The notes under the pieces were generated by a model that ran no database searches, was not told the DNA's origin, and saw only the letters and a list, made by a program, of their open reading frames with translations. From the NCBI RefSeq assembly GCF_022869165.1, contig NZ_CP094929.1, forward strand, positions 1,426,001 to 1,490,000: 64,000 nt of DNA. Direction: 5' to 3'. Origin of the DNA: Sphaerochaeta associata. GTDB taxonomy: Bacteria > Spirochaetota > Spirochaetia > Sphaerochaetales > Sphaerochaetaceae. The translations under genes and the position numbers were made by a program. Of this stretch, positions 11,917 through 24,818 are shown one piece after another; positions within the stretch are counted from its first letter, which is position 1, and every line of letters begins with the position of its first letter.

Positions 11917-12660
11917 TCAGAGGATATGCTCCAAAAAGAGTTTGGTACGTTCATTTTGTGGATTGCTGAACATCTGATCAGGCGTGCCGACTTCAACGAT
12001 GTTTCCTTCATCCATGAATACAACCTTGTCCGCCGCCGCTTTGGCGAATCCCATCTCGTGGGTCACCAGAAGCATGGTCATGCCGCTTTTGGCCAGCTTG
12101 AGCATGACATCCAGTACTTCCTTGATCATTTCAGGATCAAGGGCGCTGGTCGGTTCATCGAAAAGCATCACTTTCGGTTGCATGGCCAGTGCCCTTGCAA
12201 TGGCTACGCGTTGCTGCTGGCCTCCGGAGAGTTGGGGAGGGTACACCATAGCCTTCTCCTCAAGTCCCACCATCTTCAACAACTCCATGGCCTTCTTGTC
12301 AGCCTCTTTCTTCGAGAGCTTCTTGACCTTCAGCGGGGCGAGGGTGATGTTGTCCATCACCGAAAGATGCGGGAAGAGATTGAAGGATTGGAATACCATG
12401 CCGACTTCCTCGCGAATCTTTCTGAGGTCTACTTTCGGATCGGTCACTTCATCGTCATCGATGAAAATATGTCCCCCGCTGGGGTGTTCAAGCTTGTTTA
12501 CACTGCGAAGCAATGTCGACTTGCCGCTGCCCGAGGGGCCGATGATCACCACGACCTCCCCGTGCTCGACCGTCAGATTGGCATGTTTGACGGCCTGTAC
12601 CGTTGTATGGTTGGTGGTTATATAGTCTTTTGAAAGATCTTCTATGCGTATTCTAGCCAT
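11917..12660 (-). CDS. Polar amino-acid ABC transporter, ATP-binding protein (GlnQ/ArtP type)
   Basis: 247 residues. Walker [10 protein letters not shown] (41-49), signature LSGGQQQR, Walker [13 protein letters not shown] and the switch His in [10 protein letters not shown] are all intact. The sequence is of the PAAT class (GlnQ, HisP, ArtP) and energises amino-acid uptake together with the permease whose gene it overlaps by 8 bp. The two binding-protein genes lie just upstream. ARG-box-like operators at the permease promoter suggest arginine, ornithine or lysine as substrate; this is inference from regulation. Confidence 0.92.
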
Positions 12661-13513
12661 TTTCGTGCAACCTTTCCTCCAGGATGCCTACCAGACGGGA
12701 GAGCAGGAGGGTGATGATGAGATAAATGAGGGCGACAACCAACATGGTTTCCAGTGAAAGGAACGTCCGTGAGATGTACTCCCTTCCTTTGCGCAGGATA
12801 TCACTCAGTGCAATGGTGGATACGAGCGACGAGTCCTTGAGCATGGAGATGAACTCATTGCCGATTGCAGGCAAGACAACCTTGATGGTTTGCGGGAGGA
12901 TGACGTAACGGAACGCCTGAGAGCGGGAGAGACCCAGCGCGATGGCGGCCTCCATCTGTCCCTTGGGGATGGCCTGGATGCCGGCGCGCACGATTTCGCC
13001 CATGTAGGCTCCAAAACAAATGGAGAGGGCTACCACCGCTGCAATCATGCCTTCAATCTTGAAGAACCTTCCCATTGCATAGTAGATGAAAATCAATTGA
13101 ACGAGCAGGGGAATGCCCCTGATGAGCTCTACGTAGACGCCGCTTACCACGTTTATCCAGCGTCGTTTGCTCACCGACCCAAGACCGGTGACCGTGCCGA
13201 TGACCATCGCGCCCAAAATGGCAAAGATGGTTGCCTGGAAGGTGACGGGCGTGCCTTTGATGGTCACTAGAAAGATATCCCTGTAAGGCTTGGGTTGGAA
13301 GATTACCAATGATGCCAACAGGGCGATGGCACTGAAGAACGTAATTCTCCAAGAATTAAGGATGTGCCCGTCATCCTTGCGCGGAATGAGCACACCGTCG
13401 GTCATTTGGATGGTGATAGGTTTCTTTTTCTGTGCATTCGGGTCGACGGAAACAACTTTTTTTCGAACTGCCTGCAGTTTGTATTCGTCAATATCAGTAG
13501 GTGTATGTTCCAT
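12653..13513 (-). CDS. Polar amino-acid ABC transporter, permease (HisMQ family)
   Basis: 286 residues. The permease core begins near residue 80 with [16 protein letters not shown] and includes the EAA loop [22 protein letters not shown] that contacts the ATPase. Ahead of it lie an unusual charged cytoplasmic region of about 50 residues ([12 protein letters not shown]...) and an extra membrane span, so it is longer than the usual 220-residue HisM/GlnP. It is a single permease, presumably forming a homodimer. It has its own promoter at 13550-13578, overlaid by two ARG-box-like sites, in addition to any read-through from the binding-protein gene upstream. Confidence 0.9.
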
Positions 13514-13549: not shown

Positions 13550-13578
13550 GTACTACATAATTATACAGCTAAAGTCAA
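13550..13578 (-). promoter_or_regulatory. Promoter of the amino-acid permease gene
   Basis: TTGACT (13578-13573), 17-bp spacer and TAGTAC (13555-13550), about 37 nt before the ATG. An ARG-box-like element fills the spacer. Confidence 0.6.
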
Positions 13579-13599
13579 GCTACGATGCATAATTATTCA
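13554..13599. promoter_or_regulatory. ArgR-type operator pair (ARG boxes), permease promoter
   Basis: Two 14-bp elements, TACATAATTATACA (13554-13567) and TGCATAATTATTCA (13586-13599), fit the ARG-box pattern TGnATnnnnATnCA and are separated by exactly 18 bp. One box lies between -35 and -10, the other just upstream of -35. Arginine repressor binding is inferred; no argR gene is in the window. Confidence 0.65.
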
Positions 13600-13631
13600 G
13601 ACAATCCCAAGATTCTTTGCTTCATCATGCA

Positions 13632-13655
13632 ACAAGCCGCCCAATGGCGGCTTGT
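13632..13655. terminator. Strong hairpin after binding-protein gene 1 (attenuator or mRNA-stabilising)
   Basis: A perfect 10-bp stem, ACAAGCCGCC/GGCGGCTTGT with a 4-nt loop, lies between the first binding-protein gene and the permease promoter. It is not followed by a good T-run on the minus strand, so partial termination or protection of the binding-protein mRNA end is more likely than full termination. Confidence 0.55.
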
Positions 13656-13680
13656 GCTTGAAACAATTGCAATCAAACAA

Positions 13681-14463
13681 TTACAGAATGTTCCACTTCT
13701 TCTTCAACTCAGCCATCTTGCCGCTCGCTTCTATTTGCTTCAGGCCGTTGTTCACAAGGTCGAGCACTTCCGTGTTGCCCTTGAGCATGGCAATCGCAAT
13801 CGGTTCCGGGTCGCCGAGGTCGCTTGCGCTCCCTGCAACCTTGAGTTTGCTTGCATAGTTGGGATTGGACAGGACGAAGTCACTGGCGATTACACTGTCG
13901 GTCACCACAGCCTGAAGGTTGCCGTTGAGCATGTCCTCGATGGCAAAACCGATCTCGTCATATGCCTTGATGGTGGCCTTGAAGGAGGGATTCTTCTTCA
14001 TGAAGTCATCAAGGAAGATATGGCCGGTGGTTCCCAGCTGAACACCTACCACCTTGCCGTTGAGGCTTGCCGTGTTGGAGAGTGAAGTATCGGCGATCGG
14101 AGCCAGGATAGCCTGGGTGATAATCATGATCGGAGTGGAGAAATCCATGGTGGCCTTGCGTTCTTCGGTTACCGAGACGCCGCTGGCAACAGCGTCGTAT
14201 GCGCCGTTTGCAAGACCTGCGAAAATGCCTTCCCATGCCACGTTGCGGATGGTGATCTGTACATTGTTCACCTTTGCAATTTCATTGACCAAATCGATTT
14301 CAAAACCGACGATGTCCCCATTCTCATCGACGAATTCGAGCGGAGGCCACGCACAGTTGGCTGCAAAGACATACGATTTTGAGCTCTCTTTCTGCCCTTG
14401 GGCGAAGAGAAGTGCCGAGGCTGCGAGCAACATGACCAGAACAAGGGTTCCAAGCTTTTTCAT
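13681..14463 (-). CDS. Amino-acid ABC transporter substrate-binding protein 1
   Basis: 260 residues. The signal peptide (about 1-21, LVLVMLLAASALLFAQ) has no lipobox cysteine. The family-3 binding-protein features follow: WPPLEFVDENGDIVGFEIDL near the start, GAYDAVASGVSVTEERKATMDFSTPI, and VGVQLGTTGHIF. The protein captures a polar amino acid outside the membrane and hands it to the permease. It is clearly related to binding protein 2 next door (same motifs in the same order), so the two arose by duplication and may differ in substrate. AAGGAG 8 nt from the ATG fixes the start. Confidence 0.9.
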   Translation of the reverse strand: MKKLGTLVLVMLLAASALLFAQGQKESSKSYVFAANCAWPPLEFVDENGDIVGFEIDLVNEIAKVNNVQITIRNVAWEGIFAGLANGAYDAVASGVSVTEERKATMDFSTPIMIITQAILAPIADTSLSNTASLNGKVVGVQLGTTGHIFLDDFMKKNPSFKATIKAYDEIGFAIEDMLNGNLQAVVTDSVIASDFVLSNPNYASKLKVAGSASDLGDPEPIAIAMLKGNTEVLDLVNNGLKQIEASGKMAELKKKWNIL

Positions 14464-14492
14464 ACTATATCTCCTTCTTTATGGATATGCGT

Positions 14493-14521
14493 ATAATGAA
14501 TACTTATACATTGATTGTCAA
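14493..14521 (-). promoter_or_regulatory. Promoter of binding-protein gene 1
   Basis: Consensus TTGACA (14521-14516), 17-bp spacer and CATTAT (14498-14493), about 29 nt before the ATG. Confidence 0.65.
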
Positions 14522-14542
14522 TCATTAAAGAATAAATATACA
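14497..14542. promoter_or_regulatory. ArgR-type operator pair (ARG boxes), binding-protein 1 promoter
   Basis: TGAATACTTATACA (14497-14510) and AGAATAAATATACA (14529-14542) are separated by 18 bp. The first lies mainly within the -35/-10 spacer. Geometry is identical to the other two transporter promoters. Confidence 0.65.
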
Positions 14543-14595
14543 GAAAAAAGTGAATTATTTGAATAATCTTTCATGCCCAAGGGAACTATATGCAG

Positions 14596-14620
14596 AAAAA
14601 AGGGGAGCCGAAGCCCCCCC
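14596..14620 (-). terminator. Rho-independent terminator of binding-protein gene 2
   Basis: Minus-strand stem GGGGGGC/GCTCCCC with a TTCG tetraloop, followed by six T, 18 nt after the stop codon. Confidence 0.85.
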
Positions 14621-14638
14621 AATGGACGTGAAGTCTGC

Positions 14639-15388
14639 TTACAGCAAATTCCACTTCTTCTTCAGTGCATCGAAGCTGCCATCAGCCTTTGCAAGTTCAA
14701 GACCCTTGTTGATCAAGTCAAGCAATGTCTTGTTACCCTTCTGCACGGCAATGGCGATATCCTCTTCAGTGAAGGGAGCGCCGGCAACCACCAAGCGATT
14801 CTTGTAGTTATCGTTGGCAAGCACAAAGTCGCTGGCGATGAGGGAGTCGCATACTGCTGCATCAACGTTGCCGTTCAAGAGGTCCTCGATGGCAAGGCCG
14901 ATGTCGTCATAGGCTTTTCTCTGGACCGGATAGTTTTCCAGGGCGAAGTCACCGGTAGTGCCGATCTGCACTCCGATTTTCTTGCCTGAAAGATCGCCGA
15001 TTCCCTTGACCTTGCTGCTGTCGCTGCTTCGGATGATCACCACTTGGCCTGCAGTAAGGATGGGAGTTGAGAAATCCATGGTTGCCTTGCGTTCTTCGGT
15101 GACGGTGACACCGCTTGCAACACCGTCGTACGCTCCATTGGCGAGACCTGCAAAAATGGTGTCCCAGGGAATATTCTTTACACTCATCTGTACGCCCACT
15201 TTCTCCCCGATGAGCGGCATCAGCTCAACCTCAAAACCGGTAAGCTGTCCGTTTTCAACGAACTCGAGGGGAGGCCAGGTGGCATCGGATGCAAAAATAT
15301 ATCCGCTTTTTTCTTCTTTTTTACCCTGAGCAAAGGCCAAGGAGGCCGCGAGGGCGATGATGAGAATGGTGAGTATGGTTTTTTTCAT
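14639..15388 (-). CDS. Amino-acid ABC transporter substrate-binding protein 2
   Basis: 249 residues. The signal peptide is MKKTILTILIIALAASLAFA, again without a lipobox cysteine. It has WPPLEFVENGQLTGFEVELM, GAYDGVASGVTVTEERKATMDFSTPI and KIGVQIGTTGDFALENYP, the same layout as binding protein 1. The frame is open to 15472, but the start at 15388 begins the signal peptide and has AAGGAG 7 nt upstream. It is transcribed alone: its own ARG-box promoter lies upstream and a good terminator downstream. It probably shares the single permease/ATPase pair with binding protein 1. Confidence 0.9.
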   Translation of the reverse strand: MKKTILTILIIALAASLAFAQGKKEEKSGYIFASDATWPPLEFVENGQLTGFEVELMPLIGEKVGVQMSVKNIPWDTIFAGLANGAYDGVASGVTVTEERKATMDFSTPILTAGQVVIIRSSDSSKVKGIGDLSGKKIGVQIGTTGDFALENYPVQRKAYDDIGLAIEDLLNGNVDAAVCDSLIASDFVLANDNYKNRLVVAGAPFTEEDIAIAVQKGNKTLLDLINKGLELAKADGSFDALKKKWNLL

Positions 15389-15421
15389 GAAAAAACTCCT
15401 TGTAGTGCTGGTATACAAGGC

Positions 15422-15450
15422 ATCATGCATACATATGCAACGAAAGTCAA
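15422..15450 (-). promoter_or_regulatory. Promoter of binding-protein gene 2
   Basis: TTGACT (15450-15445), 17-bp spacer and CATGAT (15427-15422), about 33 nt before the ATG. Confidence 0.65.
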
Positions 15451-15471
15451 GCAAAGGTGAATAACTATGCA
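15426..15471. promoter_or_regulatory. ArgR-type operator pair (ARG boxes), binding-protein 2 promoter
   Basis: TGCATACATATGCA (15426-15439) and TGAATAACTATGCA (15458-15471), separated by 18 bp, with the -35 box lying between them. Confidence 0.65.
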
Positions 15472-23444: not shown

Positions 23445-24668
23445 CTAGTTGGTATCCCGTTTGGCGCTTGCCATGAGTCGGATGGCATTGATATTGATGA
23501 ATCCCTTGCAGTCCACCGGCTGATAGCCCCCGGCCTTGTCCATGGAGCCCAGCGCCTCATTGTAAAGCGAGACCGGACTCGAGACTCCTGCGAAGATTAC
23601 ATTGCCCTTGTAGAGGACCACTTTGCTTGTACCGCTGACATTCTTTTGGCTCTGTTCAAAGGCGGCTGTAAGCATTTCGAATTCAGGGGCTCCCCAGTAC
23701 CCGTTGTAAATGAGCTGGGCATACTTGGGCATCAGCGAGTCACGCAGGTGCATCACTTCCTTGTCCATGGTGATGCCTTCCAGATTGTGATGTGCCTTCC
23801 AAAGGATCTCACAACCAGGGGTTTCATACACACCGCGGCTCTTGATGCCGATATAGCGGTTCTCCACCATGTCCACACGGCCGATGGCATTGTCGTGACC
23901 AAGCTTGTTCAGATAGAGAATCATCTGCAAAGGATCGGTGACGACCGTCTTGTCCTCTTCATTGGTAACAGAAACCGGAAGGCCGTTCTTGAACTCGAAG
24001 GTCAGAAGCGTCTCCTTGTCCGCAGCCATCCTGGGGCTGAGCGTCAGGCTGAACACATCTTCTTCGCACCGCTTGGAGGGGTCTTCCAGGATGCCCGCCT
24101 CGTGGCTGATGTGGATAAGATTCTCATCCTCGCTGTACGGTTTCTTGGTGGAAGCCTTGATGGGAATGCCGTACTTTTGGGCGTAGGCTATCATATCGCT
24201 TCTTCCTTCGAATTGCGTCAGCCACTCGGGGTCCTTCCATGGGCTGATGATTTTCACCTGTGGCATGTGCATGTAATAACCGAATTCAAAGCGGACCTGG
24301 TCGTTTCCCTTTCCTGTTGCACCGTGGGCAACATAAACCGTTCCTTCCTTGCGGGCGATTTCAATCTGGCGTTTGGCGATGATGGGCCTGGCCAGTGATG
24401 TTCCCAGCATGTAGGTGCCTTCATAGATGGTATTCGCCTTCAGCGCAGGGAAAATATAGTCGGTAACCAATTCCTTGCGCAGGTCTTCGACATAGACCTT
24501 GGAGGCACCGGTAGCCAGTGCTTTCTTCTCGATGGCGGCAAAATCCTCGTTCTGACCGACGTTCGCAACATAGGCGATGACGTCAAAGCCCTTGTTTGCC
24601 AGCCACTTGAGGATTACAGAGGTATCGAGACCTCCACTATAGGCAAGAATGATTTTTTCCTTATTCAT
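23445..24668 (-). CDS. argG: Argininosuccinate synthase
   Basis: 407 residues, the usual length. The ATP-pyrophosphatase loop AYSGGLDTS (about 9-17) starts the protein. [24 protein letters not shown] and the citrulline/aspartate-binding region are present. It joins citrulline and aspartate using ATP, the penultimate step of arginine synthesis. GGGAG about 8 nt ahead of the ATG supports the start. It is a single-gene unit with a strong terminator. Upstream lie a near-perfect ARG box and a second weaker one overlapping the probable promoter, so repression by arginine through ArgR is likely. Confidence 0.96.
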
Positions 24669-24741: not shown

Positions 24742-24755
24742 TGTATAAATATTCT
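24742..24755. promoter_or_regulatory. ARG-box-like operator at the argG promoter
   Basis: TGTATAAATATTCT matches the ARG-box pattern at all but the last base. It overlaps the probable -10 of argG (TAGAAT or AATATT on the minus strand near 24748-24756). Confidence 0.55.
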
Positions 24756-24804
24756 ATAAAATACTGAAATATGCAAGAAAAGAGTGAGTTTGGTCCAAAT
24801 ATGG

Positions 24805-24818
24805 TGAATTAATATTCA
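24805..24818. promoter_or_regulatory. ARG box upstream of argG
   Basis: TGAATTAATATTCA fits the ARG-box consensus at every constrained base and is a near-perfect inverted repeat. Its centre is 63 bp (about six helical turns) from the promoter-proximal box. Confidence 0.7.

Follow-up and report, generated by a model that had tools for sequence, protein, structure and literature searches.

Three promoters at a transporter locus of Sphaerochaeta associata probably act as ArgR-repressed, arginine-responsive units of a single polar amino-acid ABC importer, controlled through an operator that is interleaved with the promoter and locked to it in helical phase; judged from sequence, we place the probability of this reading at roughly 0.88. 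The locus lies in a 64,000-nucleotide stretch (the window) of a 3.55-Mb, single-contig genome, and all three promoters and their boxes are on the minus strand (Table 1). The promoters of binding protein 1 (BP1), binding protein 2 (BP2) and the permease-ATPase unit each combine TTGAC(A/T) with a 17-bp spacer, a box of the form TGNATNNNNATNCA filling that spacer and, 18 bp further upstream, another such box, as the preliminary description of this DNA had reported. The six main boxes differ from the palindrome TGNATNNNNATNCA at no or one position, and the members of each pair are 32 bp apart from start to start, equivalent to an 18-bp gap between 14-bp cores; within it, the -35 is separated by 7 bp from the distal box and by 5 bp from the proximal one. 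A promoter consensus scan of the window, in which the number of matches was not above chance, recovered the BP2 and BP1 promoters and missed that of the permease.

Table 1 Positions of promoter elements, ARG boxes, genes and hairpins in the window
Feature	Position	Strand	Evidence or remark
Proximal ARG box, permease promoter	13554..13567	-	TGTATAATTATGTA, 1 mismatch; fills -35/-10 spacer, ends in first two bases of -10
-35 TTGACT, permease promoter	13573..13578	-	sequence, composite pattern
-10 TAGTAC, permease promoter	13550-13555	-	weak; 17-bp spacer
Distal ARG box, permease promoter	13586..13599	-	pattern scan; conserved in genus
Possible third ARG box, permease promoter	13618..13631	-	1 mismatch; further 32 bp upstream
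Proximal ARG box, BP2 promoter	14497..14510	-	pattern and composite scans
-35 TTGACA, BP2 promoter	14516..14521	-	promoter consensus scan
-10 CATTAT, BP2 promoter	14493-14498	-	promoter consensus scan; 17-bp spacer
Distal ARG box, BP2 promoter	14529..14542	-	1 mismatch
Possible third ARG box, BP2 promoter	14560..14573	-	1 mismatch; further 31 bp upstream
Proximal ARG box, BP1 promoter	15426..15439	-	no mismatch
-35 TTGACT, BP1 promoter	15445..15450	-	promoter consensus scan
-10 CATGAT, BP1 promoter	15422-15427	-	promoter consensus scan; 17-bp spacer
Distal ARG box, BP1 promoter	15458..15471	-	no mismatch
BP1, substrate-binding protein 1	14639..15388	-	cystine model E 2e-43, Lys/Arg/Orn-binding model E 1e-41, both below cut-off
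Intrinsic terminator 3' of BP1, between BP1 and BP2 units	14601..14620	-	consensus scan; z -2.7
BP2, substrate-binding protein 2	13681..14463	-	best model TIGR01096 (Lys/Arg/Orn-binding subfamily), E 1e-45, below cut-off
Stable hairpin 3' of BP2	13633..13658	-	terminator-like, poor T tail; z -4.2 for surrounding 68 nt; not called as terminator by consensus scan
Permease subunit, HEQRo 3TM family	12653..13513	-	TIGR01726 above cut-off
ATP-binding subunit, GlnQ-like, polar amino-acid ABC importer	11917..12660	-	NCBIfam GlnQ E 2e-96, below cut-off
argG, argininosuccinate synthase by sequence	23445..24668	-	likely further ArgR target in window
Proximal ARG box of argG	24742..24755	-	1 mismatch
Distal ARG box of argG	24805..24818	-	no mismatch; 63 bp upstream of proximal box

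A family-3 binding protein, a HEQRo permease and a GlnQ-type ATPase occur together at the locus, as in PAAT importers, and the system is a polar amino-acid ABC importer, probably for a cationic substrate. BP1 and BP2 are paralogues; relatives of BP1 in the PDB include AncQR and ArtJ, and among named organisms the permease has its closest relatives in Sphaerochaeta, including S. halotolerans. Arginine, ornithine or lysine is a plausible substrate, and because the substrate-specific family models (Lys/Arg/Orn, cystine, Gln and Arg) all scored below their cut-offs, it may instead be another polar amino acid. The permease and ATPase genes overlap by 8 bp and therefore form one transcription unit, and the terminator after BP1 and the hairpin after BP2 indicate that the locus probably comprises three units, each with its own promoter.

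Pairs of boxes at the 32-bp distance are rare. With at most one mismatch per box, four pairs were found in the window, compared with none in 100 dinucleotide shuffles of it, and across the 3.55-Mb genome such pairs are confined to the transporter locus rather than scattered over random sites. Allowing up to two mismatches in all added two unrelated 2-mismatch sites to those at the transporter, with no match to a reversed-pattern control. The composite TTGAC-N6-TGNATNNNNATNYA has exactly four matches in the genome, three at the transporter promoters and one at argF, all oriented like the gene that follows (reversed control, 0). The shuffles and genome-wide scans together rule out a chance or low-complexity origin of the paired boxes. 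The strict single box is not diagnostic by itself, with 33 sites in the genome, several of them within genes; one inside argD was not counted as an ArgR target. Among other perfect boxes, TGCATATTTATGCA is 80 bp ahead of a gene for a sodium/solute (proline-type) symporter, which may be an additional ArgR target (G000:C1:2079555, L081), and TGCATACTTATACA is 20 bp ahead of a purE-like gene (G000:C1:2566527, L087). Conservation in relatives, also proposed as a check, was borne out, the 32-bp pair being present at least once in 25 of 26 genomes of the genus, where nearly all composite matches are at the transporter or argF; the fragmentary genomes G010, G022 and G023, whose only pair matches have no -35 in the gap, were not counted as support.

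The regulator expected elsewhere in the genome was found as a single ArgR gene, so that a genome without ArgR can be rejected. Its product is homologous over both domains to AhrC/ArgR of solved structure and carries the motifs TQATLSRD and AGDDT. Matching boxes occur upstream of argF, argG, carA and argR itself (genes named by sequence similarity), a positive outcome for the proposed check on whether boxes precede arg genes. The argF boxes of the source genome are 31 and 31 bp apart, counting one 2-mismatch box, and argF promoters of relatives have two to three boxes at 30-32 bp, the proximal two flanking a TTGACA. Several relatives also have, immediately upstream of argF and in its orientation, a gene for a MetQ-like, methionine-type ABC binding protein (L026:460-2445). 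The argG pair, at 63 bp (six turns), is kept in most genomes of the genus, as are the carA boxes, 22 bp apart. Between the argG boxes (window 24742-24818) there is a half-box-like TGCATA motif.

The argR gene is preceded by a two-box operator, TGTATCTTTATTCG-N7-CGCATAAATATTCC (L001:1200-1234; G000:C1, about 3346403-3346437), with the 21-bp spacing known from E. coli; this spacing is kept in 21 of the 21 genus genomes checked, in which the single boxes have one or two mismatches. Elsewhere in the class, several families likewise have canonical 21-bp pairs directly upstream of argR (G070, G065, G089, G157, G179, G037 and G038 are examples). These positions tie the box to ArgR without leaning on the ARG-box consensus alone. 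Contigs C15, C50, C149 and C166 of G037 carry four near-identical copies of TGAATCAATATGCACAATTAGTGAGTAATTATTCA, which points to a repeated element resembling a canonical ARG pair. ArgR was present in 12 of 12 family genomes checked, and its presence therefore cannot separate members with the 18-bp pair from those without. Overall, a palindromic box, an ArgR with an SR motif for DNA binding and a GDD motif at the C-terminal end, boxes at arg genes and argR, and overlap with the promoter are all found, as in ArgR/AhrC operators in the broad sense.

Judging from sequence comparison, what the family Sphaerochaetaceae conserves is helical phase and not the 18-bp gap as such. The gap had been described as invariant, which is true of the window promoters and most of the genus, whereas the family has gaps of 17-19 or about 27-29 bp. 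Across 78 permease loci, 73 box pairs upstream of the permease are spaced at 31-33 bp (40 after removal of near-identical sequences), with smaller peaks at 22-23 bp, partly because TGACT in the -35 resembles the beginning of a box, and at 40-43 bp; virtually no pairs were seen in downstream control sequence, and shuffled sequence yielded 0.04 per spacing. In gaps that contain TTGAC, the start of the proximal box is almost always exactly 5 bp after TTGACN, and its final two positions coincide with positions 1 and 2 of the -10 (CATTAT, CATAAT, TAAATT or TAGTAC). In the permease and argF promoters, TA takes the place of CA at the end of the box, as a better -10 might demand. Among promoters found with the composite, 55 have their best upstream box 6-8 bp before the -35 and 12 have it 16-18 bp before, with none at another distance; the two boxes are then 31-33 or 41-43 bp apart. 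Upstream of the -35, the boxes of 77 non-redundant composites show peaks near 7, 17, 27 and 37 bp; not all of these peaks are independent, since half-sites may be shared by adjacent boxes offset by 10 bp. Of the two weak third boxes, at the permease and BP2 promoters, the former parallels boxes found family-wide 36-39 bp before the -35. Composite promoters were lacking at 24 of 74 family loci, many of which are short contigs or distant relatives.

These distances bear on the possibility that ArgR binds but that the fixed 18-bp gap is a mere relic of the duplication of one promoter, without functional meaning. BP1 and BP2 being paralogues and the BP1 and permease promoters having CTTGACTTT in common would fit such a history. 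We consider it very unlikely, however, because diverged promoters shift the distance by a whole turn yet keep the phase (6-8 or 16-18 bp before the -35), and unrelated argF promoters have the same phasing, which together point to selection on helical phase.

The proximal ARG box is built into the core promoter, starting exactly 5 bp after TTGACN and lending its last two bases to the -10, and the distal box lies on the same face of the DNA three turns upstream. By analogy with E. coli, we infer a mechanism in which hexameric ArgR, with arginine as its corepressor, grips both boxes and encloses the -35 between them. It would most likely cover the spacer, the flank of the -35 and the beginning of the -10, excluding RNA polymerase when arginine is plentiful. 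The opposite sign of control, in which bound ArgR activates the importer for arginine catabolism as at some catabolic operons, appears very unlikely. A catabolic role is possible for ornithine carbamoyltransferase. ArgR is also known to activate Bacillus catabolic genes and the E. coli ast operon (PMC3293853). Against this, a proximal box overlapping the spacer and -10 and a distal box abutting the -35 should occlude polymerase, and boxes are also present at argG and carA, both of them biosynthetic. That some other transcription factor with a similar palindrome controls the transporter is extremely unlikely: although the palindrome is AT-rich and simple and the assignment to ArgR is itself made from sequence, the composite is common only to the transporter and argF, the box recurs at argR itself across the class, and the genome has a single ArgR gene.

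Beyond repression by ArgR at these three promoters, a more tentative proposal, to which we give somewhat less than an even chance, is that in this family one ArgR reads boxes two, three, four or six whole turns apart (21, 31-33, 41-43 and 63 bp), with phase fixed and distance free. The proximal box would be part of the core promoter, and additional boxes would keep the register. If so, ArgR might wrap or loop the promoter DNA to connect the boxes, something that lies outside the classical adjacent-box model. With operators of 21, 22, 31, 32 and 63 bp in one genome, S. associata offers a natural series on the tolerance of hexameric ArgR to box spacing. Across Sphaerochaetaceae, the findings also connect an otherwise unassigned importer of polar amino acids with arginine metabolism, and they sketch a small ArgR regulon for a spirochaete.

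Because argF, a gene of arginine biosynthesis, has this layout too, the system looks like a common kind of arginine switch whose strictly helix-phased spacing is unusual. Importers under ArgR control are already known, as is wide box spacing, for which B. subtilis argC is a precedent; the literature searched, with partial coverage, yielded no description of a promoter-interleaved whole-turn series in one genome or of a spirochaete ArgR regulon. The argR operator of the same genus and class has the same box type and presumably the same regulator as the transporter promoters, but its boxes are 21 bp (two turns) apart with no -35 between them. The AhrC operator at B. subtilis argC has two widely spaced boxes with 11 bp between them, so that their centres would be about 29 bp apart for a box length of 18 bp, and it includes an additional box (PMC3293853); it serves a biosynthetic gene and its extra box is inside the coding region, whereas the Sphaerochaeta boxes are 30-33 bp apart and fixed relative to the -35 and -10 at several promoters. 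The preliminary view of the wide gap as lineage-specific is thus only partly upheld: the genus conserves it, but B. subtilis has a precedent and the 32-bp layout is not strictly confined to Sphaerochaetaceae, since it was found in G065. In that genome, from another family, the layout has TTGACA in the gap and lies near a permease relative (G065:C2:94337-94382, L093), which suggests ancient origin or transfer; the sequence recurs in L202, 787 bp before its permease relative, and offsets in G065 are slightly different.

A close parallel comes from the E. coli transport genes artJ and artP (arginine/ornithine) and hisJ (histidine), which are regulated by ArgR through two palindromic boxes 3 bp apart at or near a sigma70 promoter (PMC6640053); at E. 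coli carAB P2, occupancy by ArgR and by polymerase is mutually exclusive (PMC6245113). The gap had been contrasted with 2-3 bp in E. coli; the transporter pairs, at 32 bp, do depart from the E. coli type, but 18 bp is measured between 14-bp cores, for which the like-for-like E. coli value is 7 bp. E. coli-type pairs (20-21 bp centre to centre) with 1 mismatch were absent from the genome, which has a weaker 21-bp pair at argR. The E. coli 18-bp boxes are 21 bp apart centre to centre, whereas those of Sphaerochaeta are 32 bp apart, with the -35 between them and one box filling the promoter spacer.
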